Shown here: positions 6,311 to 39,097 of the stretch, one piece after another
Position numbering within the stretch: position 1 is the stretch's first letter
Layout: every line of letters begins with the position of its first letter
Assembly: GCA_019096195.1 (NCBI GenBank)
Contig: JAGTXK010000121.1
Coordinates: 62,001-126,000, forward strand
DNA length: 64,000 bases
Direction of reading: 5' to 3'
From: Boletus sp. NGJ
Lineage: Eukaryota; Basidiomycota; Agaricomycetes; Boletales; Boletaceae
The notes under the pieces: model-generated
Told to the model about the DNA's origin: nothing
The model's input: only the letters and a program-made list of their open reading frames with translations
The model's database searches: none
Translations under genes and position numbers: made by a program

Positions 6311-6468
6311 GGACGTTGAGGGGAGAAGCGGAGCACAGGAACCTGGCAACGTTACTGCGCCAAATGTGGCTGTCCAAACTTGGACTGACACAGCGTCTCA
6401 CGAAATCCAAGGCCGCTTGGCAAGTGGGAGTCCCCATTAAAATCCTCAAATTTCTACCTTAGTGTATT

Positions 6469-7921
6469 CTACATATTCATTCGGCACACCGTACCGCTAC
6501 CGCTCGTTCCATCGAACACAAAGAAGTTGGCTATCGGCGCTTCTCGTGCAGCCAGTGCTTTCAGAATATCTTGGGCCAGCATCCCACCAACAACAGCACA
6601 TACTGGGGAGAATTCGTGAGAGGCTGCCGTGGACAGCGTCCTAGAATGACCGTGTCAACATCACAATGTACTCGTGTATACCATGGCACCCACTCGATCA
6701 GCTCCCGTGGCATTGTATCAAGCACTAGTTTGTTTACACCAGATGTCTCCAACAAGGAATTGGCTATCGACAGGAGTTGTGGCGCTTCCTCCACGCTCTC
6801 TGGCAGCTTTTCAAAGTGAGCATACTGGTACTCCCACATGGCTTCGTCATCCGTTACACGTCAGCATTCAGTGGGAACGATATCAATTCAGCTCACCCAG
6901 TATAGCATGTACGACAGCTGGATTAAGCTCCTTCGTCTGTCTCCTCGTCAAACTAGACCATTGGTGACGCAAGGCCATGTGCAAAGGCGAGTACACTGCG
7001 CTAGCCTTCATATTGCGAGGTGCATCACTCGGAGCAGACCGATCGCTGTCTCAATCGGTAAACGATCAAGAACGAATTTAGATGAACGAATCTCGAGGGA
7101 TACTCACGGGGAAATGTAATCATGCTTGAGTAGATCACAGAAAATGTAACCCATCAGACCAAAAGTTCCACCGGCGTAAAATGGCTTCCCGAAACGCCGG
7201 CAAACTTCATTCATACGAATCTTAAGCGACGTACCCAGTCAGCAATGGTGAAGACGACGAGTCTATGAACACGTGGCATCTCTCACCAGTCCTTCACGAT
7301 CCCAATCGGTCACGCAGACAAGGTCGACACTCCTGACCAGTGTATCAAGTGACTCCCGCTCTTGCAGCACATCGTGACTTAACGCCTGAATAGTGACGAG
7401 CGGATTTAGACTTTCTATCCGGGGCTTGGCGGCGTCCACTTTCTGTCGAGTAATAGCTCCATCAGTTCACAACGCCACCCGGAAAAATGCGTGATCATCA
7501 TTAGGATACCTTTTTCCCAACATCATCGTCTCGGAAAAAGAAACCTGTCCCGAGATCCTCTTCGCTGACTTTGTCCGTGTCAACGATAACAAGCTTTCCA
7601 ATTCCAGCGAGGACGATGTTCTTAATAGCCTCGGTTGCGGTGCCCCGTAAGCGAACGATTAGAATGGTCGCATTTCGCATTCTGTGCCGCCAAACGGTCA
7701 GTCTCTGGGCTGGAGGTCGTACATACACGATATTTCACCGTTGCTGAGCTTCGAGACCCCATAGTCGTATTTGACGATCGTAGACAGCAGCTTCGTCTAC
7801 AAGAAATTGGACGATGACATGTCTAACCTCAGAAACACGAAGAATGGCAATTCAACGCGAACTTACCCTCTGTGATCTGGACAGGATTCGATTTGGTGCT
7901 ACCTTCATAGTCTGATGACAT
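6469..7921 (-). CDS. AOS1: SUMO-activating enzyme subunit 1 (AOS1/SAE1)
   Basis: Noncatalytic half of the SUMO E1 enzyme; it pairs with UBA2 to adenylate SUMO in the nucleus. It begins MSSDYEGSTKSNPVQITE at 7921 and shows the family-specific YDRQIRLWGLEAQQR, then RMRNATILIVRLRGTATE and KNIVLAGIGKLVIVD of the ThiF/Rossmann fold, EEDLG, VTDWDREG, and the late SPVCAVVGGMLAQDILKAL crossover helix ending in NFFVFDG. About seven short introns are needed, all with usable GT and AG sites. AOS1 proteins lack the catalytic cysteine, as expected here. The LWGLEAQQR start and the VVGGMLAQD end favour AOS1 over the NEDD8 subunit ULA1. One residue of oddity: LIVRLRG replaces the usual LIVNLRG. Confidence 0.92.
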
Positions 7922-10740: not shown

Positions 10741-11128
10741 TGTGGAAGAGAAATGAAGTGGGTCAGCGATGGATCTGAGAGAGAAAAAGTAAAGATTAAC
10801 ATGACAAGCCAGAAGAAGACTGAAAAGGAAGGGACGAGAGCGTTGCAAGGGATGGTGTAGCAGGACGATGAGGGAGAGAGGATGAAGACAGCCGGAATAT
10901 CTTCGGTCTATCAACAACGCACTTTCTCTTACACCTCCCGTTTTCGGATAGGCTGGGATGCGGTGACCCAGAATTAGCGTTTTTCTTTTGCTCTATCGAT
11001 AGACATGGGTACGAGACAAGCTGTGGTTTTGGCCGGCAGAGATCTAGAGACGGACGTTGTCGCAAATCTCCCATCACTCGAAATTACTTGGCCAATTTAT
11101 TTATTATTTTCAGGATAATTATGTAATT
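10741..11128. other. Upstream region of the Zn2Cys6 gene
   Basis: This gap lies between the Zn2Cys6 gene and the stop of the PPR-like gene, both on the minus strand. It probably carries the promoter and 5' exon or exons of the Zn2Cys6 gene, including ATG candidates at about 11007 and 11077. None could be joined to the zinc cluster with confidence. Confidence 0.4.
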
Positions 11129-13483
11129 TCATGACCCCAGCGCACTCAACATCGTCCTCCCCCGCCCCACGTCCAGTCTCCCCTCCGCGCAGTGTCGTCG
11201 TACCATACTCCCAATCGCGTGTCGCTGCCTCCTCTGCTCCCCATCCCCCCATTCCGTCTTTCCTCGTATCAGATGCGCCCAGAAGTTGAATGCCATGACT
11301 GGATCCTCCAGGTGAAGACACGCAACGATGCAGCACTTCCCCACGTTCGGTGTGTGCACAGCGCTCCATTCCCCTGTCGTTCGCACAACCTCCCATGCCC
11401 GCCGAACATTAGCTTTCAGCCGCTCGTTGTCCATGCCTTTTCCGACCGCCACGCTCGCTTGGATCAGCGACACCATCGTTTTCGACGACAGCGACACACC
11501 AGCTTCTCGTGTCCGATCTAGAATTTCCGTCACTAGCTCGGAGTCTCCGTGCACGATCGCCTCATGCAACACGGTACCAAACGTGACCCTGTCCGGCCGC
11601 AATCCCTGATCAACCATGCGGTATACAATTTGACACGCCGCCCTCGGTGACTGGCGTGCCATTGCAGAAAGTGCGATATTGATGTCGTGTCGGTCTGGTA
11701 TCTCCCGCCGCCCGATCAGAACTCGCAACGGACGAAGCCCCTCCCCCATCTCCCCGAGCATGAAATGTCCCCGCGCAAGCGCGCTTAGGTCAAAGTGATT
11801 AGCTTCCTCCAGCGGTAGTATCGACTCCCGAAATGCCCCCAGAACTTGACGCGCGAACCAATAGTAATCGGTCCCCTTCTCGTCCAGACGAGGCGCTCGA
11901 ATCATCTTTTTCTCCAGCTTCGCCCGTGTCCACGAGTCGCGGCGAGTGAACAGACTAACCACCCGGAGCATCGTTGCTGCGTTCCCAACCACGAACTCGT
12001 GTCCATAGCCAATCGAGTACCTCTCCCAAAGCGCACGCGCTTCTGTCGCAAATCCCTGGCTGGCGGCCAGGGCAATGAAACGACCCCGATCATAACGGGG
12101 TATAGGCTCCGACGTGTCGACAACTTGTTTAGCCAGAGAGCGTGCGAGATGCACGTCATGTTTTTGTCCGACGAGGTATGCCATCAACCACGTTAACGTC
12201 GCGCCTTGGGGTGATGGGTATCCCTTCAGCATTTTGACTCGACGCGACTGGGTGTGACTATAGAACACGTGTGCGGATTCGCAGTCGCCCACACGCAATG
12301 CCCGGCTATAGAAGAGATGGATAGTTTTGGTGGGAATAGTTATACCACAGTGAGGTTCCACGAGATGGCACATGAGCCAAGCACATGCTTTAAACTGCGT
12401 GAGTGAACATCTCTCCAGAGAAGCATGCAGTAGTTCTAGCGCAAGGGGTTCCAAATCTTGTTTGAGACAATTTTGCGACTTCGTGATTGACGCGATGAAT
12501 CCCACACCACGATGATGCCAGTCCCAATGCAGGCAAGCCCGCGCCAGTGTAGATCTCACAATCACTGCAAAATCATGCGCGAGTGGAGGCGGGATATCGG
12601 CCAGGATCGCTTCGGCAGGTATATGGCCACGATCGGAGAGGGTTTGGAAAAGTTCAAAAGCTTCATGATGTCGTTGATGCGATACGAACTTGTCGATTAA
12701 TGCGTATGCAAGGGAAATGGTTTCAGGGGGTCGGTAAGATACGGCTTTTGCTCCCATAGGCGGCTGGAGCGATGCGAGGTGTTTCAGGAAAGGACAAAGG
12801 ACAAAGCTCATCAGAGGTTGGTCAAGCATGTCTGAAGTTGTATCATCTGTGATGGTTTTCATCACGTGCAACGATGCCGGTGCGGGCAAGACGAAGAGTT
12901 GATCTTGGCGGCGAATGATTGTGAGTAGGGATAGAGTCGTCTGTTTGTCTAATAGACTGGAATATCGGCGAGGGACGCAGAGGAGGGATACAGCTACCTC
13001 GGCACGCTGCTGTTCGTGAAGGAGATGGTCGTCCAGTACGTCTGCTGTAAGACTAGCCACGATATCCTGGGATCCATGCTTGACAGCTCCCTCTGCGAGG
13101 CGGCAAAGAACGTCTGTTGGTAGAGAGGCAGACAATGTGGGGTCTTTGGCGCGTAACTCTGCGTAGGCGTCAAAGGGGCCATGCTTAGTTTTCTCGGACA
13201 TGAGCTGCTTCGCCACCAGTTTAGGGTCAATTGCCGTCTTTGGCACCGAGTAACGCGATACACGCAATACTGTCTCCAACAGGGCTGGTCTTGGATCTGG
13301 AGGCGGGTCATCGGGTCTGATGGCGAATGGCTGTACCCCAACCTCCGGAAAATTCTCGCGAGTGACAAGATTGGAATGGCTGGATCTGAAATTAAGAGAT
13401 GTTCTGTCACGGACATGACCTTTGATGAGTCGTTGGGTAGCAGCTGAGTTGGAGGTATGCAGGATACGGCGACAAAGTAACAT
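11129..13483 (-). CDS. PPR-like mitochondrial protein, single exon
   Basis: One uninterrupted 784-residue frame, unlike its intron-rich neighbours. The N terminus MLLCRRILHTSNSAATQR is rich in arginine and hydroxylated residues and lacks acids, as in a mitochondrial presequence. The rest is all-helical with poorly matching 35-residue repeats. The clearest is around residues 600-690 (DINIALSAMARQSPRAACQ, then MVDQGLRPDRVTFGTVLHEA, then ILDRTREAGVSLSSKTM), which fits the pentatricopeptide consensus of paired helices with a D-R-V-T-F-type turn. Such fungal proteins bind mitochondrial transcripts or assist their maturation or translation. The exact RNA target is unknown. The start at 13483 is the only ATG preceding the presequence. 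Confidence 0.82.
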   Translation of the reverse strand: MLLCRRILHTSNSAATQRLIKGHVRDRTSLNFRSSHSNLVTRENFPEVGVQPFAIRPDDPPPDPRPALLETVLRVSRYSVPKTAIDPKLVAKQLMSEKTKHGPFDAYAELRAKDPTLSASLPTDVLCRLAEGAVKHGSQDIVASLTADVLDDHLLHEQQRAEVAVSLLCVPRRYSSLLDKQTTLSLLTIIRRQDQLFVLPAPASLHVMKTITDDTTSDMLDQPLMSFVLCPFLKHLASLQPPMGAKAVSYRPPETISLAYALIDKFVSHQRHHEAFELFQTLSDRGHIPAEAILADIPPPLAHDFAVIVRSTLARACLHWDWHHRGVGFIASITKSQNCLKQDLEPLALELLHASLERCSLTQFKACAWLMCHLVEPHCGITIPTKTIHLFYSRALRVGDCESAHVFYSHTQSRRVKMLKGYPSPQGATLTWLMAYLVGQKHDVHLARSLAKQVVDTSEPIPRYDRGRFIALAASQGFATEARALWERYSIGYGHEFVVGNAATMLRVVSLFTRRDSWTRAKLEKKMIRAPRLDEKGTDYYWFARQVLGAFRESILPLEEANHFDLSALARGHFMLGEMGEGLRPLRVLIGRREIPDRHDINIALSAMARQSPRAACQIVYRMVDQGLRPDRVTFGTVLHEAIVHGDSELVTEILDRTREAGVSLSSKTMVSLIQASVAVGKGMDNERLKANVRRAWEVVRTTGEWSAVHTPNVGKCCIVACLHLEDPVMAFNFWAHLIRGKTEWGDGEQRRQRHAIGSMVRRHCAEGRLDVGRGRTMLSALGS

Positions 13484-18356: not shown

Positions 18357-18545
18357 GGTGGGAGATGGAAGAGAGTCCCCTCTGACCCGGGGTAATTGAA
18401 GTACGCCATGAACGAGCTGCTACGCAGAGAGTATATTGTCACGTGTCGGTTGCTTGGAGGTCGTTACGACGACTGCCACGGTGGCAAGCCCTTCAAGAAT
18501 AGGACGACCCGCCCTCTGCCCATTCCCTCGGCCTCCTCCCCTTCA
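18357..18545. promoter_or_regulatory. Shared divergent promoter of MATH-BTB and RSP5 genes
   Basis: Only 189 bases separate the two start codons, which point in opposite directions, so both promoters must overlap or share elements. Both genes act in ubiquitin ligation if the MATH-BTB inference holds, but this alone does not prove co-regulation. No clear TATA box is seen. Confidence 0.5.
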
Positions 18546-21279
18546 ATGTCGTCCGAGGACCACTCCACCGTTCGAATAACAGGTACGTCCATCATACAAC
18601 TCTTGTTCTCCACCACCCAACATCGTTCCCAGTTCTTGCCGCCAACTCCCTCGTCAAGCGCGAGGTATTCAGTCTCCCCGACCCCTTTGCCGTCGTTTCC
18701 GTCGACGGCGATCAGACCTATACCACAAACGCAGTCAAGCGTACCCTCTCTCCCGCGTGGAATCAGCATTTTGACATGTCAGTTTGCCTTTCCGTCCAGC
18801 GCCATGTTTCTGACCGGTCCTCCACGTAGCTCTGTCCGCCCTTCATCCTCTATACTCATCCAGATCTTTGACCAAAAGAGATTCAGAAAGAGAGACCAGG
18901 GCTTCCTTGGCCTCGTCAAGTTGGCCGGAGACCAAGTCCTCACCTTGTCAGCAAACGGTCACGGTAGCTCTCTTCCTCCCTTCCTCCTCCTTCTTCTCAC
19001 CATTAACGCTACTAGGTCTCATCAGCAGAGATCTCACACAGTCCTCGAGCGGTGCCCAGGTGTACGGCAAACTCCTCTTTTCCCTCTCTCTGCCGCATAT
19101 CGGAGGATCACGGACTCGTGCTCAGCAAGCGCCCACTGCCATTCCTGCGCTACAGCTTCCAGACGTACCATCGTTGCGTTCGCGCAGGAGCGCCCCGTCC
19201 CTTCGTCCAGAATCGTCGACACACAGCCCTCACCATTCTTCCATGTCTTCCTTTACTGCTCTTGAGGGCTCTATACCTTCATCTTCCACCCGCTCCCGCA
19301 CTACTGGAGAAACACCAATCTCTCCTGCTTTACAGACACCCCTCCCACTTAGACATCAGCCGAGCGTTCACAGCGGACTTGGAGTGTCCTCTCCCGACAG
19401 TGCAACGAACCAGAGTTCGATTCATCGAGATGAAGTCGGCCCTCTCCCCCATGGTTGGGAGCGTCGTTTCGATGCAAATGGAAGAGCATACTATGTTGAT
19501 CATAATACCCGTTCTACCACCTGGCAACATCCTGTTCCCTCATCAGAGACTCCATCGCAGCGTCTCCCGTCGTCCTCCCGATCCCAATCACAACCGCCAC
19601 AACCTTCCGCTTCCAATGGGATTTATGCCGATGTCCCCTTACCCGATGGATGGGAGGAACGTCGCACTCCTGAAGGGAGGCCATACTTTGTGGATCATCG
19701 CACAAGATCGACAACATGGAACGATCCCCGATCATCCCAGGTCACCCTTGCTGCTGCCTCGGCCTCTGCTAATGCCAGTGCCAACCTCGGCCCACTTCCA
19801 TCTGGATGGGAAATGCGGTTGACATCCACAAGTCGGGTTTACTTTGTCGACCATAACACTCGCACGACAACATGGGATGATCCACGCTTGCCAAGCAACC
19901 TAGATTCAAATGCCCCTCAGTATAAGCGTGACTATAGGCGAAAGGTGATTTACTTCCGGAGCCAACCCTCCATGAGAATGAAAGATGGCAAATGTGAGTT
20001 CAAGCTGCGCCGAAATCGGGTCCTGGAAGACAGTTTTGCTGCGGTCATGAAGATGCGTGGCGATGACATGAAGCGGAGGTTAGTCGTTAGGTTCGAGGGT
20101 GAGGATGGTCTAGACTACGGAGGTGTCTCTAGGTATGACAAAAGCCATATTCCTGGCTCACCTCTGATTTTTCCACCAGGGAATGGTTCTTCCTGATTTC
20201 TCACGAGATATTCGATCCGTCGTATGGGCTCTTTCAATATTCCGCACACGACAATTACACACTTCAGATCAATTGGATGTCGGGGATTAACCCTGAGCAC
20301 TTGACGTACTTCAAGTTCATTGGGAGGATCATAGGACTAGCGATATTCCATAGACGGTTCTTGGACGCATATTTCGTCACAAGCTTCTACAAGATGATCC
20401 TAGGCAAAAGACCGTCTCTTTCGGACTTGGAGGCCGTTGATGCAGATCTACACCGGAGTTTAGTATGGATGCTGTAAGGACCACTCCATGTCCCCAGTGG
20501 AGCTGGCTAACCAACATCTGAATATTAGGAAGAACGACATTACCAATGTTCTCGATGAGACTTTTTCAGTCACCGAGGACCGCTTTGGAGAAATCATTGA
20601 CGTTGAGCTCAAGCCCAGCGGAGCAAATATCGTTGTCACCGAAGAGAACAAAAAGGAGTATGTCGAAGCTGTCGTTGAGTACCGCACCAAGACAAGGATA
20701 AAAGAACAAATAACCACACTCCAGGAAGGATTTAGGGAGCTCATTCCCTCGGAATTAATTGACGTGTTTGATGAACGGGAGTTGGAGCTATTGATCGGTG
20801 GCATGTCTGAGATTGACACGTACGTTTGTTTCTTGATAGATTTTGGCAAGAGGTCTAGAGGACTGATTTGACTGGCCGCAGGGATGATTGGATCTCGTAC
20901 ACCGACTACCGCGGCTACGAGAAGACAGACCAAGTTATCGAGTGGTTTTGGCAATGCATCCGGAGTTGGCCGACTGAGCGCAAAGCTCGTTTGCTGCAGT
21001 TTGCAACTGGGACTTCACGAGTTCCCGTCAATGGTTTCAAGGATCTTCAAGGGTCGGATGGGCCTAGGAGATTCACGATCGACAAGTCTGGAGATCCTTC
21101 ACAATTACCTCGGAGTCACACATGTTTCAATAGGATCGAGCTCCCCCCTTACGAAGATTACGAGAGCTTGGAAAGGAAACTAACATATGCTATTGAGTAT
21201 GTCGATTCAATCCCATTGCCTGCGAGGATTGTGTACTAATTCTTGGACCAGGGAAACGGAAGGTTTCGGAGTAGAGTAG
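18546..21279 (+). CDS. RSP5: NEDD4-family HECT ubiquitin ligase RSP5
   Basis: E3 ligase that ubiquitinates membrane proteins and factors carrying PPxY motifs, or their adaptors. Seven introns are predicted. The C2 domain (about residues 10-120) starts [20 protein letters not shown] and binds membrane lipids. Three WW domains follow, each with two tryptophans and the middle YYVDH or YFVDH strand: [40 protein letters not shown] and [20 protein letters not shown]. The HECT domain runs from [20 protein letters not shown] to the end. The catalytic cysteine is in [14 protein letters not shown], and the protein ends EETEGFGVE as NEDD4 enzymes do. C2-WW3-HECT is exactly the yeast Rsp5 order. Start at 18546 gives [12 protein letters not shown] directly before the C2 strand. 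Confidence 0.96.
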
Positions 21280-21518: not shown

Positions 21519-23799
21519 ATGCGAGTAGAAGACGGGTTTCAGTTGGTACGTCGTCCAGTCCGCATGGCGTAGTTATTAAATTGTATCTCAGTACAGCTCC
21601 CACCCTGCAGACTCATTTCACTGAGCGAAATGCATATCTCAGTGACCCAGTGCTGCCCAATTTACTGAAGAGGGTTTTACCTTCAAAGTGCGACCGCTCC
21701 ATTGACTAAGCTTCGAATCGCTCACGGACATCCAGGATAGCAAACGAGATTGAACCCGACCTCGTGCGTCTTGGTACGGAAGTTATCACCAGCAAGTGTT
21801 TCCTTTGATGCTAAAGGTCAAATCCTGACTCTGTTCAAGGTGTTCGTGCTATTAGCGAGCGCGCCACCCCTCCGCACCTGACCCAGTACAACCACTGGGG
21901 GCAACGGATTGATCAGCTTGACACCTCTGAAGCATGGAAGGAGCTGAAAGGCGTGTTCTTCAAGGAAGGCATTCCCGGCATCTTTTACGAGCGGAAGTAT
22001 GGCAAGTTTAGCAGGATATATGGATTCGTCAAGTTGCATATGCTCGTCGGAGATTCCCATGTGGTGAGCCGAGTTTGTCTTGTGTGCGGTCGGCTGGACT
22101 CAGGGTCGGGCCACTTTGCAGGTAGGATGCCCGATTTCTATGACAGATGGGTGTGCCAGAGGTGAGAGCTCCATTTCAAGTTGATATCGTCGACGCAACT
22201 GATGCAATGCTCTAAACAAGTCCTTGAGCTCGTCGGTACTCCGGAAATGAAGACTAGCTTATTCCCTCGTCTTACAAGGTACGCACGTTCATCAAGGAAC
22301 ACGAAGGACTTTCTCATTGGTTGGCAGTCGTGATCCTTCCTTTGGCTTTACATCAGGACAATGGATGACCGAGGCATGTGCATCCACCGTCTCATATCGT
22401 AGCGCAATTCACACGTGATCTTTAGCGACCAGGCGGCTCAGATGTATCTCTCACTGAGACAATTGCTATTCCAACTGAGCATTCCGGGGATCCGATGTGG
22501 CCGGCATACCAACTGGATGGGTTCAAATGGTTCTCGAGTGCTACTGATAGTGACGTGTCCGTTGCACTGGCGCGTACAGGGGACACCCATGATGGTTCGC
22601 GTTCGCTCTCCCTTTTCCTAGTTCCCCTTCGCATGCCGCTCGTCTTGCAGCCTGGAGAACCTTCCCCGTCTCCGATCAGCAATGGCATCTACACGCACAG
22701 ACTAAAGAACAAGATTGGGACGCACATGGTACCTACCGCCGAGCTCACTTTGAAATCGACGACTGCTTACCTCCTTGGCTCACTCAATCACGGTGTCAGG
22801 AATATCCTTCCTGTTCTCTACATCACTCGCATCCATAGTGCCATCTCTGGAACGGGCCACTTGCGCAAATGTCTGGAGATTGCAATTGCCTACTCAAAAG
22901 TCAGGAGCATCTCGGGTGGTAAGCAACTGCTCGAGGAGAATGCGGTACATGTGGCACAGTTAGCCTCCATCAGTCTCGTCTATCGTGCCCTGACGCACCT
23001 TGTCTTTGGCACAATTTCGTTCATGGGGAAAGTGGAGGCCAACGTGGCGAGCAAGGATGACGAAGCATTGCTGAGGATTTTGACAGCTGTAGTCAAAGCG
23101 TTCACTGCAGAGAAGGCGGTTTCGGCCATGGAGGAGAGCATGACCGCTCTGGGGGGAATGGGCTACATGGAAGAGGTGGGTATCGGTAGGTAAGCACTTT
23201 TATCATAGCGGCCGTTAGTTTGCACTCAGATTGTACACGGACAGATCTATTCGCGATGCTCTAGTAGAGAAGATCTGGGAAGGCACCACCTCCGTCCTCG
23301 CCTTGGATCTTGTGCGTAGTGCCAATGACCCAAGCACTTTTGCGGCGTTCACGAATGTCAGTTTGTCTTCTTGGTCACCCGAGAAATGCTCGAGAACTGA
23401 GATATGTCAAAGTGGGGAACCAAGATCCTCGATTCCTGCCCATCAGAACTTGGGAGCAAAGTACGGGCACCCCTGGAAGCCGTCAGAGCTGCTTTCCAAA
23501 CGATCGATGACATTTATCGTCATCCCACAAGGATCTCGCCTCTACTGCCCCGGCCAGGTCTGATGTTAGTGGGATACGCTGCATCAGCGGCAATGCTTCT
23601 TGAACATGCGGTGTGGTCGCACAACACGAAGATATCAGAGCGGGACGTGGATGCCGAGGTATTCGTGCGTTGGGTGAATGAAGGTGGTTTGTCGTCTTCA
23701 GTTCGGGAAGTACTTGAAATTACTAGGGGACTCGGACACCATGAAGAGCGTATCCGGATGAACAGCACGCTTGCGTATGGGCCCGGGCCCAAGCTGTAG
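21519..23799 (+). CDS. AidB-like acyl-CoA dehydrogenase
   Basis: FAD-dependent acyl-CoA dehydrogenase of the AidB branch; the substrate is unknown. Predicted start MRVEDGFQLTHFTERNAYLS at 21519, after joining a small first exon across a 65-base intron. The chain continues IEPDLVRLGTEVI, YNHWGQRID, FTSGQWMTE, then RPGGSDVSLTET (the AidB active-site segment), LDGFKWFSSATDSDVSVAL and the C-terminal helical domain with YSKVRSISGGKQLLEENAVH, GGMGYMEE, IRDALVEKIWEGTTSVLALD and LEHAVWSHNT. About eight introns, several with GTGAGT-like donors. E. coli AidB binds DNA and is induced by alkylation; fungal members are cytosolic or peroxisomal enzymes of unclear role. The 5' end is less certain than the rest; an ATG at about 21456 lies upstream in another frame. 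Confidence 0.85.
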
Positions 23800-24046
23800 A
23801 GTTTCTGATTGAACGACGTCTTTTAGAACACTTGCTCTACTGCATGTTTTTGATTGGGTTGAAGAGGGCAGTAGTTATTACACAAGATCTCTTGATCACC
23901 ATGCGGAATTGTTTGGCCAAGTACACTGACATTCGCTGGTTGGACTTTTGAACGCTTCGGAAAGCTCACCCCAAGGTCCATGCCATAACTCATCGTGGGA
24001 GTTGCAGTTCCTCAGATGTTTCCGTTTCCCAGATCAGCGTCGCTCG

Positions 24047-24858
24047 ATGTCAGTCAAGTTTCGCGTTTATATCGTGCGACATGGCGAAACAGACTGGAAC
24101 AGAACGCGAAAGTTACAAGGTCAATCGGACGTCCCACTCAACGAAACCGGGCTCAAGCAATCCATGTTGGTCGGCGAAGCTCTCAAGGACGTACCGTTTG
24201 CAAGAGCGTTGAGCAGTGACCTCCAAAGGGCACTCAAGGTAAGAACATAATGTTTTTCGGATCCAAACAATTGGACTAGTTTTTCTCCCAGACCGCAGAG
24301 TGTATTCTCCAATACCACTCCGACGTCGTTTTCGAAAAGGACGAGTCGATCCGGGAGCGAGTAAGTGCACCGCTGCTCGAGTTTATCATCCGCTCGACTG
24401 CGGTGCTGTCGCAGTATTATCTAGGTGAATCGCGAGATGAATTTTCGAGATCTGACACGCCGGCACCCTCTGCAGAAACGATGCCCGAGTTTGCTGCGAG
24501 GTGTCTGGCTTGGTATACGAGTTCGATCGAGGATTACATGGTGGCGACGGTCAAAGAAGGTGTCCCCGTGGAACAGCCCCATAACACCCTCGTGGTCTCT
24601 CATGGAGGTTTTATCCTGACTCTCCTTACTGCACTGCAGGCAAACGGAGCGGTGACTTGCCGTGAGGGTGTCGAGATCGGGTACTGCCTAAACACCGGTG
24701 TGTCTATCGTCGAGTACACTGACATACCTAGTGGAGGAGAAAGACCTTTTGGGGGAACCTTGGTTCGGTACTCGGGCGTAGAACACCTGGTACATCAGAA
24801 CTTACCACCCCTAGAGGTAAACGCGGACGTATTGGGGGATGCATGGTGGCAACCCTAG
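24047..24858 (+). CDS. Histidine phosphatase, TIGAR/phosphoglycerate mutase-like
   Basis: Member of the histidine phosphatase superfamily. The N-terminal motif VYIVRHGETDWN carries the phosphorylated histidine and the arginine next to it; the second catalytic histidine is in VVSHGGFI near residue 165. The segments LQGQSDVPLNETGLKQ and ALSSDLQRALKTAECIL match the fructose-bisphosphatase-2/TIGAR group. Two introns lie after LQRALK (donor GTAAGA at about 24240) and after ESIRER (donor GTAAGT). The start at 24047 (MSVKFRVYIVRHGE) leaves the usual four to eight residues before the active strand; an upstream in-frame ATG at 23948 is less likely. The substrate may be a sugar phosphate; sequence alone does not decide. 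Confidence 0.85.
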
Positions 24859-25090: not shown

Positions 25091-25813
25091 TCAAAAATAA
25101 CCGTACCCAAGTAGCCCCCGGCCTCCCCAGCCCTTTCGAGGGGTAAATTGCAATGATAATTCCTGTCCATCGCGAAGCACTTGTATGCGCAACTCGTGCT
25201 GCAACACTGGCTTAACACCATTGAGGGGATGATCACTGACTAACGTACATCTTCACTGCGACCAACGAGGTCAGCCAGAGGTTCCAGAGAAGAAGCTGAG
25301 AACGAGGCGGTGGTCAAATGACCGAATTTTATGACGAGGTCTTCGCGACGAAGGCCCTATTCTGTGCGTCAAGTAATGCAAGTTGTGAACAGAGCGCGGG
25401 CATACCGCATGCGCAGCAGGACTGTCCGGTGCGACGCCGTCTACTTTCGCAAAGGGGGACAGACTTTCTCCTGTATGCGTGCTTGGTGTCGATGACGCAT
25501 CAGCAGGTGCTGGGGATGAGATGGAAGGAGGTGCGAGGGAGGGGTCATAGACCTTTTGCAACGCTTTCTCGATCTCGTCCATGGTGTACTTGAGATCGTT
25601 CCTCAACTCGACTATGCGAGCCCGAGCAGAGCGAATCGCGTAAATGTCCAGGTCGGCGCGTGGAAAGCCTTCGGCATCGACGAGGGGTGTTGTCATATCG
25701 CAATTGTTTGCTCCGAGTATGGAGAGCTGGAGACTGATCTCTGCCTCGATGCCATCCTTGACATGGATCAACGCGCGAGCATTCTCTCTGGGACACTGTG
25801 CGGAAGGCAACAT
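25091..25813 (-). CDS. NAS2: 26S proteasome assembly chaperone PSMD9/NAS2
   Basis: Chaperone that holds the Rpt4-Rpt5 ATPase pair during assembly of the 19S particle and leaves before maturity. The N-terminal helices contain KDGIEAEISLQLSILGANN, then MTTPLVDAEGFPRADLDIYA and RSARARIVELRNDLKYTMDE, the most conserved block. A serine- and proline-rich linker leads to a C-terminal PDZ domain: PFAKVDGVAPDSPAAHA, GLRREDLVIKFGHLT, HELRIQVLRDGQELSLQFTP, then GWGGRGLLG. Two introns fall in the PDZ part (about 25.4 kb and 25.2 kb). The ATG at 25813 starts MLPSAQCPREN. THI4 ends only 93 bases upstream on the same strand, so the promoter must be very short or overlap the THI4 3' end. Confidence 0.9.
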
Positions 25814-25905
25814 GAAGACGGTAGCCAACAAACTTGCAGGTCAATTACATAACATCGGCAACACCAGCGTTACAACTTGGCGACTACAAATATACAGTAC
25901 GTTCC

Positions 25906-27028
<1,123 letters not shown>

Positions 27029-28901: not shown

Positions 28902-31030
28902 CTACAACCCGAGATCTGGGCGGGTGCATCAACACGCATGTTCCATCAGGAAAGCACGGAGCTGCTCACCTTCGAAAAGACGCTTCGTCTCCTCAGGACC
29001 TATGGACCGAGTGGCACGTTTTGCGAGAAGCTTCTCGGTCCTATATTTCTCATACAGAACTTCTCGGGTGTGGGCCTTGAGAACCTGCCATTTCAATCAA
29101 CCGTGTGAGCGTTAGCACGATTGCCACGTAATGTGGTGCAGACAGACCTTCATGTGTGTTAGCAGGATAGCCGTTCGAAGCGCAGCAAAATCGCAATGCT
29201 CAGGGTCAAGTACGTCAACAGTCCCCCATCGAAACTTCCTCGTGAACACGCCTCTGAGACTCTCTGGCGGAGTCATAGATACGGCTGATTTGCGAGATAC
29301 GATGGGGCTGTCTTGAGTCGTGACCGTTTCCACAGAACTAGAGGCTCTTTCTCCGTCCTCATGACTGAGAGAATAGTTGGAATCAACGGTCACGGGTCGT
29401 GGCCGCCGAGGTTGTGGGGAGCTCAGAGGCTCTGGAGCGATGAGCGCAAACGGGAGCAAGGTGTCCAGGTCAACCTTGGTTACAGTTTTAGCTGAGAAGC
29501 GGATGTTTGCGACGGTCTCTTCGTCGGTCTCGTCGGGGTACTGAGGTTCCCTTTCGTCGTGCGCGATAGACGAGAGGTCCCGACGCGAGCGGGAGCGGGA
29601 TCGGGACGTGCGGGTCCCTTTCAGTCTGATCACGGTACGCGAAACTCTGTCCTTTTCAATGTCACCATCAGCGATACCGTGAGAGTCACCATTCTCAACG
29701 TGATGGGATGAACCATTGATTCCATTTTGCGGACCGTCCGTAACCTCCTCCTGAGGCGGTGACTGTAAATGGGGTTCCTCTCCAGGCTTCGGAGCGGAAA
29801 ACACGCCAAAGCCTAGACCAGCCTGTCGTAACCCTCTCCGCACGGCCGTCTTCACTGCGAATAGGCTTTCGTCTGTGAGAGAATCCGCCTTGGCGATAAC
29901 AGGAAGCAAATTGACACGAGCCGAGAGGCGACTGATCACGCGCAGCTCGGCGGGTGACATCATAATATCGCCGGAATACTCGTCGGGCTGATCGACTGTC
30001 GGAAACAGAGAAACCGTGGTTTCAGAAACGGTCCTCCCATGTCCGCGATGTCCGCGAGCAACGCTCCTCGTCGACGTGGGGTCAACCATGAAGATGCATC
30101 TGGGAGCAGTCAGACGAGGGTGCCAAAAGTGTGCGTGACCAGCTTCTCTTACAGATGCACATGTTGATCCCCTCTGCTCTGCCTGACCACCTTGGATTCC
30201 TGAACGGAGCTCTAAGCAAGGAAAATTCACGACAGCTCAGTCTTACGAACCTCGTTCATGGTGGCCGCATAGTGCTCGTCGATGTACTTGATGATATTGG
30301 TGACTTGATGCTCGACGTCCAACTCTTTCCCCGAGGTGAACTCTAGGCCCGGGGTATCAATGACCGTCAAAAGTACCCTGTCATACCGGGATTCGCATAT
30401 TTCAATACATGCAGTTTCGATACTCTGCGTGTGCTTCAGTCCGCCTTTGAGGAATCGATTCAGAGCGACGCGTTGATCCCCGGTGGCGGCAGGGGATATG
30501 TCAGCCGTATCGAGTAAGAGGCGCAACAGGGATGTTTTGCCGGTGCCACGCGCACCGACAACCTGACGCGGGTGTGAGCGAGGAAAGTCGCTGGAGAGTG
30601 GGGGGGAACGAACCATGAGGTTGAAAGCTGGCGGAGTACGGCTCCTGCGTTGGGTCCGACGGGTCGTAGTGCCAGCACTGGATGGACTTCTCCAATTCTC
30701 GAACGCAGACGGGGGATGAGGCGATGTATACAAAGAAGAAATTTTGGCAGGTTTTGCGTCTGGTGTCTCGGGTGGCTGACCTGAGTGAATGCGAAACGGT
30801 TTATGGAAAGGAATGGGGGCATGGTCGAGGGAGTGGAGAGAGCTTTTGACCGCACCTTGGTATAGGTGAGGCTCCGGGGTTGGGGGCGTTTCGCGCAAGA
30901 CTGAGACATCCACCAGGTTCTCTGGCCACGGAATACCTTGAGGATTGAGCTCTGGCAGCGACGGGGATGTTTTCAACGGAGCAACGCTGCCTGCGCTGTT
31001 GGCTCTAGGCCGCTTCCGGAACGAAAACAT
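28902..31030 (-). CDS. Divergent septin-like GTPase A
   Basis: P-loop GTPase of the septin class, much diverged. Six exons fit. The N-terminal about 150 residues are disordered (start MFSFRKRPRANSAG). The G1 loop is VVGARGTGKTSLLRLLLDTA, G3 is VIDTPGLEF, and G4 is VIAKADSLT with the septin-typical AKAD. The end of the G domain, FRWGTVDVLDPEHCDFAALR, then THMKVLKAHTREVLYEKY, matches the septin WG..EV..EHCDF and LK..T...YE.YR signatures. A long insertion with an RS run (RTSRSRSRSRRD) sits between G4 and the WG block. The last exons end RSIGPEETKRLFEDLGL at 28902; no coiled-coil tail is seen. Classical septins polymerise at the bud neck or septum; whether this one does is unknown. Confidence 0.82.
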
Positions 31031-31598
31031 GGCCGTGGTCCGCGAGTTGGTATACAAAATGAACAAGAACGAGTGGACAGAGCAAACGAGAAAAGAACGT
31101 TCGCGACCTGCTGGATAGGACGAGATGAGATGTACAGAGTTTCTTTGTGGAAGAAGGCCGTTTTCAAACACGCAAACGGAGAAAGAGACGCGCTTATAAA
31201 ATTAAGGGACCCCCCTTTCGACATGGCAACCAACCTCACATACACATCACTCGACTGTCTCGAAAACTTTCATTTTCCAAACATACATACAGAAGACGAT
31301 GATCGATAGCTGTGGTCGAAAACAAACGACAGTGAAAGAGAAAGATGAATCACTTCAGAACCAGAGACAGAAAAAGTACAGTACACAAGACGGTCCGACT
31401 GCGAAAAACGAGATAACCCAAAAACGACGATTCGACGACTTCCGAGTGATGTGAGAGCAAGCTTCCACGGAGCGAGCATGAACGAATCAATGCTTCTACA
31501 GTCCATACCTGGACGGAAGATATGACATGGGATGTACGGGGGTGATAAGACTCGCGGGGTAGCCAGAACCTCCGGGAGATGTGTGATACAAGTGTTCT
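31031..31598. other. Intergenic between septin-like A and double Zn2Cys6 gene
   Basis: 568 bases between two genes on the minus strand, holding the 3' end of the upstream gene and the promoter of septin-like A. Several purine-rich stretches (31200-31420) are visible. No supported coding frame, repeat or RNA gene. Confidence 0.5.
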
Positions 31599-32964
31599 TC
31601 AGGGTATCATGTGACCGGTGGATTCATCCACCCTCATTCTCTTTTGGATCTGGGAAGACTCGAGGTCGTCGATTTTTCTTTTCAGGTCAACATCCATGGA
31701 TTCCCCAGGCGTGTCCTCAAGGGGGGTGCCGTTCTGATAACGTACGTCGCCAACTACGGTAGAAGACGGGGGTGACTGGGTGGGAGGGGAATGTACTGAA
31801 GGGGCCACGACGTTTGGTGGGACTTTTGATGATAAGGAGGCACGTCGAGAGCCCTTTTTGTTCGCGCCATTGTTACTGCTGTCATGATTGTAGTTGCACG
31901 GGAGTGAACGCCGTGCGCAGCTCGAACACGCTGGATGAGCACCATCACATTTGGTTTTCCGTGCTATAAACACCATCAACTCAGGCACGCTCGACCCTGT
32001 CGGGCACCTCACCTCGGCAAAAATTGCAAGCCACTACCTTGGGCCCTGCGCTCGTGGTTTGACGGGGGGTTCTTCCTGGCACGGTAGACGCACGCTTCCT
32101 TTGGGCGGCCTGCTGCTCGGATGCCGGTCTGATCGGGGGGAGCGGGGGCGCCGTCATCGTTGCTGCCGGGGAGCTTTCAGGAAGCGCGAGTGTGGCGATA
32201 TGCGGCAGCTCGTTATCCTTGAACAGGGGACGTCCGTCCGGAGCCGGAGGTCCAGAAGGGGCGTGTTTCGGCCGGACGACGGGAGTGAGGATGGGGAGAG
32301 GTTCCCGAGGCTCGGACGGTCCAGCCACAGCTTGCGGGAAGCCCTCTAAAACCGGACGCTTCTCGACGTTCGAGCTCCTCCGCGACAACGGTTGGGAGGG
32401 CATCTCGGGAGAGACCGACGGATCGTTCTCATCAGCCGATCTCTCCTCCGCACTGCCTTCAGACTCGCTCTCGTCTTCCTTGCGTCTGTGAGAGTTGCGC
32501 CGCTTGCTGGTCTGCGGCATATAATCACAGGGGTTGGACCGCTTAACACACTGACCGCAGGCAGGACGTCCGCCATCGCATTTGAGTTTACGAGCTGTGG
32601 CACGATCGGTTCAGCCTTAATCATCTTCCGTAAGAGCTTCTGCGACGCACATCGGCAGAAATTACATGCAACGGTAATCTTCTTCGTCCGCTGTTTCGAA
32701 GACCCTAGTGAACGTGCTCAAATGGGTCGTCGGATAAGGGCAAAAATGCGGCTTACTGCCAGTGGACTTGACATGGTTGGGAGGAACGGCCGGACCATCG
32801 CCCATGGTCCTCGAGATAGGCATGGCACGCGCGTCTGTCCCTGGCGGAACATCTCGGGAAATAGACAAAGAAGGGTGCCGAACGGCCCCGTGTCCACACG
32901 TCTCGATGCTCAAGACGGGCCGTGGTGTGTGTGACAGGGCAGCAAGTTGAGTGCGCGGAACCAT
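31599..32964 (-). CDS. Double Zn2Cys6 cluster protein, possibly fused to septin-like B
   Basis: Putative DNA-binding regulator. Predicted exons are 32964-32757, 32704-32651, 32594-32013 and 31963-31599, about 402 residues if it starts at the ATG of MVPRTQLAALSHTP. Two complete binuclear zinc clusters lie in one chain: VACNFCRSRKLKC with ACGQCVKRSNPCDY, and about 190 residues later VACNFCRARKTKC with ACSSCARRSLPCNY. Each cluster is split by an intron at the same point, just after CNFCR, which suggests internal duplication. No PF04082 domain follows. The first exon is in frame with, and directly continues, the last septin-like B exon, so this may not be a separate gene. The C terminus is serine-rich and ends ESTGHMIP. 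Confidence 0.75.
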
Positions 32965-34506
32965 GTTCGGCTGTATTTGGTGTGCGTGGAGAGAGTGGTG
33001 CTGGATGAGATACTCATTCCTGAATTTGTCGAAAAGATACTCTCGGGTGTATTTTTGCAACGTCTATCACGGCGTCAACTTTGACAAGGGGAGCGATCGT
33101 CAGTACCACCTACCTCCATGTGGTGGAAGATGGCATGTCGTAACGGGAGAAAGTCACACTGATTAGGGTCGAGTACGTCCATGGATCCCCACCGGTAGCT
33201 CCGTGTGAACTTGCCACGAACGAGCTTGGAAGATGGCTGATAGGATGACGGGGTGTACTGTTGGACTAATTCATGACGGGAAAGGGGCAGGTGAGTGACG
33301 CCATCGCTATGCGAGTAGATTTCGGGGGATATGAGTGCATAAGGAAGACGCAAGAGAGGAGTCGCGGGCGAGGTTGGAGGAGACGGCTGACCGGGAGAAG
33401 ACCTGGTCGTGTGGCTGCCATAGCCATTGACCATTTCACTCTTGACAGGGAGGCCAGACTCGACCACGTCTTTACGGTGCTGATACTGCGGGTGCGTGTC
33501 CATATCGAAGATCCCGAAGCCAATGCCGGCTTCTGCGAGATCTCGGCGTACGGCCATCTTGACAGCTGTTAGACGGTCGTTTGTCAACGTGTCCGCGCGC
33601 GCTATCACGGGAAGCACGTTGACTCGGGCAGACAGCCTTCTTATTGTGTTGATTTCCACGGCGGGGAGGGTTGGACGGCAGAGGATGGGATTTGTAGTTA
33701 CTGGTGGCTCAAGAATGACGGGTTCGGTGTCAGTATGGGAGAAACTGTTGGTGCGAGCCCTGGATACGAGGGGGGCGGGAGGGCCAGGGACGGAAGGGGG
33801 GACGATCATGTCGGGATCCAAAAAGTATATACACCTGGATGGGTGGGGTGGGTCAGCTGCATGAGATACGGGGCTTAAGCGCCCATGTCAAGGGAACGCA
33901 CAGGTGGATGTTGTGGTCCCCTGTCTGTGCCTTCCAATCCTGGAGGGATGAGTGAGGGGGAGGGGGAGGAGGGGGAGAAGATGAAAGACTGACGTCGTCG
34001 ATGCCGTCTGCGAATCGGGAGTCGACCTGGCGGATGATTTCCTGGATGGTCCGCTCGGCGGCATGGTCGTCGGCAAAGTCGAGGGAGGGGGTGTCGATGA
34101 GGGTGAGAGCGAGGATGAGAGGAGACGAGTTTGGGTCGAGGGCGAGGTCGATATTGATGGAGGCGGAGCGAATGTGGGAAGTGTGGCCGCTGCAACCCTG
34201 TACGAATTTTGCGACGGAGGCGAGCTGGTCCTTGGAGGCAGTTTGGGAGATGTCGCTGGTGTCGAGGAGGAGACGGAGGAAGGATGTCTTTCCGGTGCGC
34301 TGGCCAGCAACCATGAGGGTGTATCCTCTGACGGTGCCGGGGAGGGGATCGAGGGCGTTGCCAGCTGTTCCGGGGTGCATGCCGTTTGGGGAGTAGCGGT
34401 TGGTGTGAATGACGGGAGTAAAGGGGCGGATGGGCTGGCGGGATATGTGGCGGTCGTTGGCGTCGGTGAGGAAGGGGAGATCGGTGTTGTCGACGACGAG
34501 CGACAT
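32662..34506 (-). CDS. Divergent septin-like GTPase B
   Basis: Paralogue of septin-like A. Exons are 34506-33994, 33939-33902, 33834-33114 and one starting at 33063. G1 is VAGQRTGKTSFLRLLLDTSD; G3 is LIDTPSLDF, with serine for the usual glycine; G4 is VIARADTLT, with arginine for the lysine of AKAD. The domain closes with YRWGSMDVLDPNQCDFLPLR, then LQKYTREYLFDKFRNEYLIQ, as in septins. If the intron at 32756-32705 is kept, the frame stops at 32662 (about 557 residues). If it is spliced, the frame passes into the double Zn2Cys6 protein. The start MSLVVDNTDLPFL at 34506 follows an AT-rich block. The altered G3 and G4 residues suggest weak or no GTP hydrolysis. Confidence 0.8.
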
Positions 34507-34675
34507 GGTGAGGACGACGTCCGTGCCAGTCCGTTCGGGGGAGACAGAGCGAGGGTTGCCCGCGAGGCGAGGCTGGCGCGGGGATGATAAAAGAGGGCCT
34601 CAACGGAGCCGAGCGTCAGATACCGAGCCAATCGGATCCCTCCGTGCTACCTTGTTTACCCATCCTCGATTTTTA

Positions 34676-34733
34676 TTATCTCTACCGCGGAACTATACTG
34701 TATATTATTATATTTTATTATTTTATTCCGTTC
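34676..34733. other. AT-rich block between Zn2Cys6 gene and septin-like B
   Basis: A strongly AT-rich stretch with repeated TATTATT and TATATT words. On the minus strand it follows the stop of the Zn2Cys6 gene and precedes septin-like B, so it probably serves as the polyadenylation region of the first and part of the promoter of the second. Confidence 0.45.
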
Positions 34734-34750
34734 CCCGCCCAGATTCCCTT

Positions 34751-35807
34751 TTATGGAACCCCCGAGGGTCCGGCCATATCCGGGTCCCCCGCGCTCTTCC
34801 TCCCCGCCTTCTTCCCCCGTGACCCCTTCGGCGCCTTCCCCGGCCCTCGCCGTCGGGGGTGCTCCTGGTACTTGCACGCGAGAGAGCGCGTCTCGCAGTT
34901 GGAACATCGCGGTCGTCCCCCGTCACATCGCAGTTTCCGTCCTGCAGCGCGAGTGTCATTTATCACCTTCCTGCCATCCCTCTGTCCCACTCACCTCTGC
35001 AGAAATCACACGCAACGTAGATCTTCCGAGCAGGTGGCCTCTTTTCCTCTCCTTCTGCTCCCATCTCCACGCGCCCTCTCTTCCCTCGTCTGTGCGTGTC
35101 TGTCTCTGCCGTCCGCTCATCCTCCTCCTCGTTCGCACTCGGGATCCGTGCCATAAGTGGCTCCTCCGGCAGCCGCAGTTGAGGCAATACCGGAGCAGGT
35201 TCATAAATGTCGGGAGACAGCATGCCCAGCTCTCCGAGCAGATGGCTCACCGGGGGGAGGACGACCCTGGACGAGGAGCCTTCTGGATGTGTCCCCGGAG
35301 GTGGCAATGGACCAAAGGACATTCTCCTGTCCCAATCGTCGGAGCCATACAACGGTGCCGAGCGGTGTCGACCGTATTGTGAATCTAGGTAGTGCGGCGG
35401 CCGAAGTAGCCGGGAATCAGAGTGATCTTGGGTCAAGGTCAACTTGGATGGTCTGTGAGGAATCGTTCGGTTCGCTTACCACGGTGAGATGATGCCGACA
35501 CTCGCCCGCTTTGAGGGTCAATGATCGGTGTGAGCGGTGGGTCGTCGCCAGGGCTGAATCGCGAAGGGAATCTTGGAGGGGATTCGTCCCGTTCAGGCGA
35601 TGGCCAGTCGAATGCACGAGTTAGCAGAGGGATGTCGTAAGGGGATTGAGTGGTTTCGTCTGTGCTTCGCCTTCTCTCCAGTGCACGGAGTTGCTCCACT
35701 GACCGATGCAGTTGCCACGAGGATGGGTCCTGGTCTTGTTCGGTGTCGCTGGCTGTCCGATCGCGCAAGGGAGATGTTGGGTGATCGGTTGGTGGTGGTC
35801 TGCACAT
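34751..35807 (-). CDS. Zn2Cys6 protein with C-terminal cluster
   Basis: Putative DNA-binding protein. The zinc cluster is near the C terminus, not the N terminus: YVACDFCRGRKLRC with RCSNCETRSLACKY, split by an intron (donor GTGAGT near 35000) directly after CDFCRG. That is the same place as in the double-cluster protein 2 kb away, and the residues around it are alike (RKLxCDGGRP). A basic, glycine-rich tail ends DPDMAGPSGVP. An upstream intron near 35475-35425 joins SGRVSASSHRD to the middle exon (HSDSRLLRPPHYLDSQYGRH). The first visible ATG is MCRPPPTDHPTSP at 35807; an earlier exon may contain MFSFLRRQRRSEW (35926), so the 5' end is uncertain. Confidence 0.7.
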
Positions 35808-36004
35808 GGGAGGCCGTATCTGAGCAGAGATCGGGTGCGTGACTCAGAGATATAGAACGGAATGGAGGATCTCGAGGGGTCCACAGGCCATTCGCTTCGA
35901 CGTTGTCTCCGCAAAAAGGAAAACACGCCGTGGAGGAGAAGCGCGTGGAGGGGGAGGACGAAGCTGTGAGGGCTGTTAAACAGGAGCGGATGGACGCGGA
36001 AACG

Positions 36005-36028
36005 AAAAAAAAAAAAAAAAAAAAAAAA
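36005..36028. repeat. A24 homopolymer
   Basis: Twenty-four adenines in a row on the plus strand, upstream of the Zn2Cys6 gene transcribed leftwards. Poly(dA:dT) tracts exclude nucleosomes in fungal promoters, so this may help promoter opening. Confidence 0.8.
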
Positions 36029-36847
36029 GGACGGAGAGATTGTTTACATCCGCGCATTGGCAAGGGATTTGAAAAGAAGGATTTTCCGAGGGGGAGCGAG
36101 AATGTGTCTGTCGTCGTCGGGAGCCGGGAGCGTCGACAACCGCACCGTCGCTCATAAAAATGAGGGAGACTTTTGATGTTTGTGGCTCTGATTACCCTCG
36201 TCCGCTCGTTCGCTGCATCGTCGAGTCGAGTCGAGTCGAGTTGGACTCGTTTCTCGTTGAACGAACGGTCGGATGATTATTTTTCTAAATTTCTGGTTGA
36301 GCGGTATGACAAACGTGAAACATTGACAGGATTGATCGAGGGGACTCGGTGTCTTTGCCGCGCCTTCCGGATATGTCTACGTTGATCCTCGTCTCTGGTA
36401 ATCCCCCAATAGCCTATTTTTCAGCGCATTCTGCTCTACCGTATCCACACACCTCCACGCACGTCCACGCTCGCCTTTCAGTGCTGAGCCGCTTTCAAGT
36501 CAGACGACAGCCGTGCTTGCTTGTCGTGATCTGTTGTCATAGGCGCGATGTCGACCACAAGCGAAACGGAGTCTGAATAGATCGGAAGCACCAAGGCCTG
36601 AGCACCCGCTTTCCTCTCGTTCACCGGTGCCGAGCGCTGTTTAAAGTATGACCCTCATGAGTGCGCTCTCGTGACCAGCCGAGATACGGTCGCTGGCAGA
36701 GTCAGAGACCTGCAGACAATGTCCATGGCAGACCTGACATCTGTCAATCTCGAATGCATATGGATGACTGCACTCGTTAAGGAATCCGCTGACTCAGCAC
36801 ACTTGGTAACCCGCAAAGTTTTCGAATTCGGACTCTCCGTATTGATC
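36029..36847. other. Divergent intergenic region upstream of ILV3
   Basis: About 820 bases between a leftward Zn2Cys6 gene and rightward ILV3, the longest non-coding stretch of the window. It contains a four-copy TCGAG repeat at 36221-36240. The frame of ILV3 remains open upstream to an ATG at 36671, but this extension lacks presequence features. Other open frames here (for example around 36349-36576) look random. Confidence 0.45.
36221..36240. repeat. (TCGAG)4 pentanucleotide repeat
   Basis: Four perfect copies of TCGAG in non-coding DNA between the Zn2Cys6 gene and ILV3, preceded by CATCG and followed by a partial copy. Each unit boundary forms overlapping CTCGA/TCGAG palindromes. Confidence 0.8.
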
Positions 36848-39097
36848 ATGCTGTTTGTGTCAAGAAACGTCCGTAGGCTCGCAAGGTCGTACTCTTCCTC
36901 GGGTTCAAAATACGACGAGATTCCCGTCATGAACCGCTACAGCCGCGTCGTCACACGGCCCAAGGACCAGGGTGCAAGTCAGGTCAGTTACCCCTCACCA
37001 TTTCCAACTATCAACCCCCGAATCGATCTACAGGCGATGCTGTATGCAACAGATGGTGTCAACACCGATGCCGATTTTCAAAAGGCCATGGTTGGCGTTG
37101 GTAGTGTCTGGTAACCCACTCGCCTTGCTACTCCCTTTTGCATCTAACCGCGCTTGCAGGTATGAGGGCAACCCGTGGGTATTCCTCCACCGTGAATCAA
37201 GTCCAGCGTAAACTCATTGAACAGATGTAACAAACATTTGCTCGGTCTCGGTCATATCGTCAAGGCGTCCATATGCGAATCCGAGATGATCGGATACCAA
37301 TTTGGCACTGTCGGTGTCAGCGATGGCATCAGCAATGGAACAGCGGCGATGAACTACTCATTGCAATCAAGAGACCTCATCGCAGACCAGGTCGAAACAG
37401 CCGCAGGTGGTCACTGGCTCGATGGCATGGTCGTCATCCCAGGATGCGACAAAAACATGCCCGGTGTGCTCATGGCGCGTGGGTAATTCACTCACAGGGA
37501 CCGTTCGGGTCTAATTATACACAGTCGGCAGGCTCAATCGGCCTGGCCTGATGGTTTATGGAGGTTCCATCCGCGCGGGTTCGTGCCAGGGACAGCCCCA
37601 GCTCGATATTATCTCTGCCTTCCAGTCATACGGAAAGTATTTGCAGGACGGACAAACCTCCGAGGCAGAAGCATACCGTTATAATACCGTGCGACATGCG
37701 TGTCCTGGCCCAGGTGCCTGTGGTGGTGTGCGTAGCAGCCCGTGATTTTCCATCTCACCATACTAAGTTACCCGAAGATGTACACAGCAAACACTATGGC
37801 CAGCGCTACCGAAGCGCTCGGCATGACGTTACCGGGGTCGTCGTCCTTCCCCGCCGAATCCGCAGAAAAGATAGAAGAATGCAAATCTGTTGGCGTCGCT
37901 ATGCGGAACCTTGTCGAAAAAAATATGTTGCCAAGAGATATCATGACAAAGGCTGCTTTCGAAAATGCAATGGTGCGTCTTTTTCGCTTGCACGTTGTCA
38001 CGATACAGCCTCGAAAAGAATTTCTTGAACGTAGACTCTGGTCATGATCCTCGGCGGTTCTACCAATGCAGTGTTGCACCTGATTGCCATCGCGCATTCC
38101 GTCGGTATCACGCTCACCGTTGATGACTTTGCCCGAGTTTCAGATGCCACCCCGTTCTTGGCTGATCTAAAGCCAAGCGGTAAATACGTGATGGAGGATC
38201 TTAGCAAAATCGGTGGTGTGCCTCGTACGTGTTCATTCATTCACTTTTGGACAGACACTGAGTTGTGTCCAGAGGTGCTTTATTACCTATTGGAGAACAA
38301 ATACATTGACGGAAACACTCTGACGGTCACGGGGAAAACTCTGGGAGAAAACCTTGAGCGCTGGGTTCACAAGTACGGCAAACTTTCCACCGATCAAGAC
38401 ATCATCCGTCCACTTGAGAACCCCCTCAAACCGACAGGACACATTCGGTGAGATCGGCTCACTATGTGTCATGTCTGCTTATGAAATGCAGAATGCTAGG
38501 ATTTTGCGGGGCAACCTGGCTCCCGGTGGTGCAGTCGCCAAAATTACAGGAAAAGAGGGACTGACCTTCAGCGGAAAGGCACGGACGTTTGACACCGAGG
38601 AGGAGTTCACCACTGCCGTCGAAACTGGCACCATCCGGCGGGGCGAAAAGACAGTCGTCGTCCTCCGCTACCTCGGTCCCAAAGGGGGTCCAGGTATGCG
38701 GGAGATGCTCAAGCCCACCAGTTTAATCATGGGTGCAGGCTTGGGTCACGACGTTGCGTGTCTGACTGATGGCCGCTTTAGCGGAGGGTAAGTATGAGGA
38801 TATATATACATATTGCGGCGAATCTGATCCGGGCGTGCACGCAGATCGCACGGTTTCTGTATCGGCCATGTCGTACCCGAGGCGCAGGAGGGTGGTCCAA
38901 TTGCTCTCGTGGAAGACGGGGACACGATTTCGGTCGACGCAGTGTCGAATACCATCGAACTCGAGGTCTCCCCCGCGGAGATGGAGCGGCGAAGAAAGGC
39001 ATGGAAAGCCCCACCTCTCAAGGTGACCCAGGGCACTCTGTACAAATATGTCAAGACGGTGACAGATGCCAGCCATGGCTGCGTGACGGATTCGTAG
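36848..39097 (+). CDS. ILV3: Dihydroxy-acid dehydratase ILV3, mitochondrial
   Basis: Third step shared by valine, isoleucine and leucine synthesis in the mitochondrial matrix; a [2Fe-2S] enzyme. The start [20 protein letters not shown] at 36848 is a good matrix presequence. The chain follows with [33 protein letters not shown] (iron-sulfur cysteine), [33 protein letters not shown] (second cysteine), [28 protein letters not shown] (third cysteine), [51 protein letters not shown] and a normal C terminus. About nine introns are needed, two with the donor GTGGGT. All three cluster cysteines are present. RIO1 faces it with only 37 bases between stop codons. Confidence 0.95.

Follow-up and report, generated by a model that had tools for sequence, protein, structure and literature searches.

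One may ask whether a single protein can carry both a septin and a DNA-binding part. Septins are GTP-binding proteins of the cytoskeleton, zinc clusters are DNA-binding domains, and on the minus strand of a Boletus sp. NGJ contig (JAGTXK010000121.1) the two are read one after the other, so that the locus holds either one gene or two neighbours that have been taken for one. The window, i.e., the whole stretch that was analysed, comprises 64,000 nucleotides (positions 62,001 to 126,000 of the contig), and all positions given here are counted from its first letter. The reading favoured here, to which a probability of roughly three in four is assigned, is that one gene, with splicing as predicted in Table 1, specifies a protein in which a divergent septin-like G domain is followed by a linker and, at the C-terminus, by two Zn2Cys6 clusters.

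The frame itself is straightforward. The earlier note had proposed seven exons that join with matching phases and no stop into about 859 residues, with GT-AG ends at every intron and a septin-like G domain followed by two zinc clusters, and all of this was confirmed: the joined frame has exactly 859 residues and a stop, which ends at 31599, and the six introns, 49–67 nt in length (the first is 54 nt and in frame), are all GT-AG. Pfam was run on this protein, its two neighbours and four of the 22 gene-finder models; in the fusion protein it reports the septin profile PF00735 in three stretches (E 2.4e-33, 116 bits versus a cut-off of 26.2) and the Zn2Cys6 profile PF00172 (Zn_clus) in two (E 8.9e-20), both well over the Pfam cut-offs. 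A sequence search of the PDB with the septin half and its tail (526 residues) gave 43 distinct sequences at E <= 0.1 (best 6.5e-17), every one of which is named as a septin or as a yeast CDC/SHS septin. Coding signal is negative in 4 of the 13 segments of the gene, including 32999-32880 and the 54-nt exon. Relatives of the fusion protein were not confirmed either in viral contigs, scanned with the protein and with alignments of the septin pair and of the clusters, or in bacterial and archaeal genome contigs, scanned with the protein and the septin pair, a result that says little on fungi.

Table 1. Features of the fusion locus and of the genes on either side of it (positions in the window)
Feature	Position	Strand	Details and basis
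Septin / double zinc-cluster fusion gene	31599..34506	(-)	seven exons, 859 aa; joined frame, GT-AG introns, Pfam
Exons 1-7 of the fusion gene	34506-33994, 33939-33902, 33834-33114, 33063-32757, 32704-32651, 32594-32013, 31963-31599	(-)	
Septin-like G domain	33000..34326	(-)	~residues 61-445, long inserts between pieces; PF00735, PDB matches
P-loop	34285..34308	(-)	AGQRTGKT (septin B: GARGTGKT); region one residue shorter than in septin B
G3 motif	34084..34095	(-)	DTPS (septin B: DTPG)
G4 motif	33591..33602	(-)	ARAD (septin B: AKAD)
Open linker	32757..32999	(-)	septin domain end to key intron; in-frame ATG at 32964
Key intron	32705..32756	(-)	52 nt, phase 1, GTAAGC...CTAG; lowest-scoring of the six introns
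Zinc cluster 1	32527..32666	(-)	C-X2-C-X6-C-X6-C-X2-C-X6-C; split by phase-1 intron 32650-32595
Zinc cluster 2	31896..32028	(-)	spacing as cluster 1; interrupted at the same codon by phase-1 intron 32012-31964
Septin B	28902..31030	(-)	septin-like paralogue, stand-alone, immediately downstream of the fusion; 618 aa in six exons, C-terminal end ...LFEDLGL
Upstream zinc gene	34751..35807	(-)	316 aa in three exons; a single Zn2Cys6 cluster at the C-terminus; PF00172 5.3e-11

The six-cysteine pattern of the Zn2Cys6 transcription factors (PF00172) is present in full and in two copies. The fusion differs from these factors in the number of clusters, in their C-terminal position and in that Fungal_trans (PF04082) gives no Pfam match to the protein at E <= 0.1. 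The two clusters agree with each other at 22 of 36 positions, and with the cluster of the upstream gene at 23 of 36 (cluster 1) and 20 of 36 (cluster 2); the cysteine spacing is the same in all three, and a phase-1 intron interrupts each of them at the same codon. By BLAST, the zinc part of the fusion gives two matches to the upstream protein, both confined to the clusters with short flanking stretches, and to septin B a single chance-level match (E 7.7). Septin B (PF00735 at 1.1e-47) aligns with the fused septin at 3e-42 with 40% identity over the best stretch, and the first three introns of the fusion gene have counterparts at the same place and in the same phase in this paralogue, which stands alone, without a zinc cluster. 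Its last intron is of phase 1 and lies past the septin domain, ahead of a last exon encoding DLGL; the key intron of the fusion is also of phase 1. These BLAST and intron comparisons show that zinc-cluster genes and septin-like genes lie in a row at this locus. Septin B downstream, with its three shared intron positions, and the single-cluster Zn2Cys6 gene upstream, which the gene finder missed, are new here. Elsewhere in the window Pfam identifies a dihydroxy-acid dehydratase (ILVD_EDD; 36719-39097, plus strand), a SKN1/KRE6 beta-glucan synthesis protein (4261-6839, minus strand) and a protein with three WW domains (18408-20196, plus strand).

Whether the two halves belong to one transcript turns on the linker and the key intron. 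From the end of the septin domain (~33000) to the key donor at 32756 the septin frame runs without a stop, and the zinc exon is then in phase. Outside the predicted genes, a given frame stays open over 246 nt at 2367 of 37122 positions (6.4%), so that the chance of an open, in-phase tail is about 2% (6.4% times one third); this is suggestive and points to a fusion without deciding the matter. The GTAAGC and CTAG sites of the key intron are as they had been described. Its splice score, 6.6, is the lowest among the gene's six introns, and none of 52 reference introns scores below it; a real intron may still score this low, since the septin B intron 30250-30200, which is backed by its shared position, also has 6.6. 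For acceptor 32705 the donor at 32756 makes the best-scoring pair (3.2, versus 1.2 for the next), and with this pair the septin frame continues into cluster 1. By score, the key intron is third (3.2) among the possible exits from exon 4, behind 32665-32595 (3.4), which needs the key intron to be kept, and 32756-32691 (3.3), both of which end the septin within 9 residues. Further septin-ending exits are 32899-32841 (2.3), which would lead to a TAA that overlaps the key donor GTAAGC (at 32756-32753), and 33040-32971 (2.2), which would truncate the septin domain at its conserved end. Because other exon 4 splices score as well as the key intron, the single-gene reading was graded slightly lower.

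The rival that survives best is a set of isoforms at one locus, a possible but tentative reading in which an internal promoter and the ATG at 32964 would give the zinc protein alone, and the kept key intron or the acceptor at 32691 would give the septin alone; it is compatible with the fusion as a third product. The weakness of the key intron and the further exits from exon 4 speak for it, as does the acceptor 14 nt past 32705, which scores 4.4 versus 3.8 and ends the septin after 9 residues. The ATG is flanked by A at -3 and by G at +4, presumably a favourable context. Rival acceptors are, however, not rare, as in 8 of the 52 reference introns another acceptor within 20 nt scores at least as high. 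Similarly, the frame with the key intron kept does stop 31 codons on, at 32662, inside the zinc-cluster exon, just as the earlier note had it, but such a stop is generic, because five of the six introns of the gene give a new stop when kept. The regulated splice that the note derived from it is thus possible, with nothing special to this intron. The 54-nt exon 32704-32651 is bounded by phase-1 introns, and its skipping keeps the frame and drops the first two cysteines of cluster 1; a length that is a multiple of three is found in 10 of 37 internal exons of the gene-finder models. The same note had offered two genes, the second starting at the ATG at 32964, as its alternative. As separate, non-overlapping genes these are hard to make, because the unspliced septin frame stays open into the zinc-cluster exon and the other septin-only ends overlap the zinc reading or cut the conserved septin end; the start codon and the promoter proposed with it fit better as part of the isoforms of one gene.

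One gene was also called by a gene finder that received no coding or splice examples from 30500-36500 and counted that sequence as noncoding background, and the start and stop of its call are those of the 859-aa model. The finder misses the first intron, which is supported by the intron of septin B at the same place, and misplaces the intron inside cluster 1, which is supported by the cysteine pattern. When cuts were forced at 47 points and the best solution for each cut was taken, no best-scoring solution kept 33040, 32670 and 32300 all coding. Forbidding introns at the key-intron site cost 0.0 to 3.3 nats over nine settings, and in the one setting inspected the fallback was still one gene, with cluster 1 broken. 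The finder's single-gene call is nevertheless weak evidence, because the program merges true neighbours. Thi4 and Nas2_N, which adjoin on one strand (25240-27028, minus) and which we take to be normally two genes, make a useful control for false fusions, and the merge was preferred by 4.9 nats. A second control pair at 22495-24858, by its motifs presumably an acyl-CoA-dehydrogenase-like and a phosphoglycerate-mutase-like gene, was merged as well (6.2 nats), where the split rule passed introns with an edge on the cut, so that neither this value nor the 3.3 nats of the second septin test is a clean two-gene comparison. In the finder model g2 (10005-13483, minus strand) a further Zn2Cys6-like cluster (CDACRARKVRC...) follows a long unrelated first exon, and this model is probably two genes merged.

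That two genes were wrongly joined here too, with a sequence error or a different splice masking the true septin end, is an unlikely explanation, albeit one with a precedent: the RefSeq model XP_662412.1 of Aspergillus nidulans AspE, since withdrawn, had apparently been fused in error with the adjacent gene, according to the passage on it in PMC11238149. The bias of the finder to merging and the near-equal scores of the alternative exits from exon 4 are in its favour, and so is the length of the tail, as septin B ends about 22 residues past the end of the septin-septin alignment and the fused copy runs 82 residues more to the key intron. Against it stand the forced cuts, at none of which the best solution kept both halves coding, and the occurrence of the same architecture in Pleurotus ostreatus, in a set corrected with RNA-seq (PMC7295025). 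The fusion in Boletus is not proven by sequence alone, because the key-intron signals are the weakest of the gene, exits of about equal score leave the same exon and the finder merges true neighbours.

The P. ostreatus gene is the best evidence for the single-gene reading, which is supported by the open frame and by this published gene of the same architecture. The protein, PoZCP55, one of GenBank MN652925-MN652990, is described with three septin domains (PF00735) and two C-terminal zinc clusters; it forms a separate clade among the 66 zinc-cluster proteins of that fungus and is one of the four among them with C-terminal clusters (PMC7295025). The remark of the earlier note that no septin-transcription factor fusion had been described was therefore wrong. 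The gene structures of this set were corrected against mapped RNA-seq reads, and the relevant passages of PMC7295025 do not mention reads that span the junction of PoZCP55 itself; the expression section of that paper names PoZCP14 as the one gene unexpressed in any profile. The Fungal_trans region, described there in 43 of the 66 proteins, is common and not universal in that set (PMC7295025). As far as the published description allows the two to be likened, the layout is the same, with PF00735 matches (three stretches in the Boletus protein) followed by two PF00172 clusters. By analogy, the three 'septin domains' of PoZCP55 most likely represent a single septin domain interrupted by inserts, as in Boletus, and the Boletus fusion is most likely a further member of the PoZCP55 kind, with orthology judged from architecture. 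Within the literature searched, PMC7295025 alone describes this architecture; the relevant passages of PMC4035324 mention a septin and, as separate proteins, zinc-cluster factors, and those of PMC9862757 a septin only.

The septin half of the fusion resembles the septin family (PF00735) in its profile match and in the region around WG...CDF, presumably the septin unique element, where RSYRWGSMDVLDPNQCDF aligns with Septin-1 (chain 8dkt_A) among the solved septins. It departs from the family in the G1, G3 and G4 motifs, in the long inserts and in the tail, which is predicted to bind DNA. If the canonical forms are taken to be GxxxxGK[ST] for G1, DTPG for G3 and xKAD for G4, none of the three motifs of the fused septin conforms, and septin B has another sequence at each of the three GTP motifs compared; we assume that a looser P-loop pattern, with A or G in the first place, would accept the G1 of the fused copy. 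That these changes mark a decaying septin duplicate which ran into its neighbour, so that the fusion is transcribed with a non-working septin half, is improbable, since the half is free of stops over ~445 residues, has a positive coding signal in the true frame in five of its six segments, and retains the RYRWG...DPNQCDF region, and since the same architecture is described in P. ostreatus (PMC7295025).

How could such a gene arise, and what might its product do? The fusion may have originated next to septin B, the tandem septin-like duplicate, through splicing of the terminal phase-1 intron of a septin copy to the phase-1 zinc exon of an adjacent gene. The likeliest mechanism, which we hold tentatively as a whole, is the following. 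Two zinc clusters in one chain could read two DNA half-sites, should they bind DNA as expected, and the septin domain, with GTP handling perhaps weakened by the altered motifs, may serve as a module for self- or cross-assembly, possibly with septin B, or for anchoring. The coexistence of a canonical and an altered septin copy suggests a division of labour. Much more doubtful is a switch, in which the fused septin would pair with septin B, nucleotide-dependent assembly would set where the DNA-binding half acts, and the splice from 32756 to 32705 or to 32691 would pick between the tethered and the septin-only form. In any case septin B is a ready partner candidate for the fused septin and, if the architecture is conserved, the fusion would form a direct link between the machinery of cell shape and the control of genes in mushroom-forming fungi.
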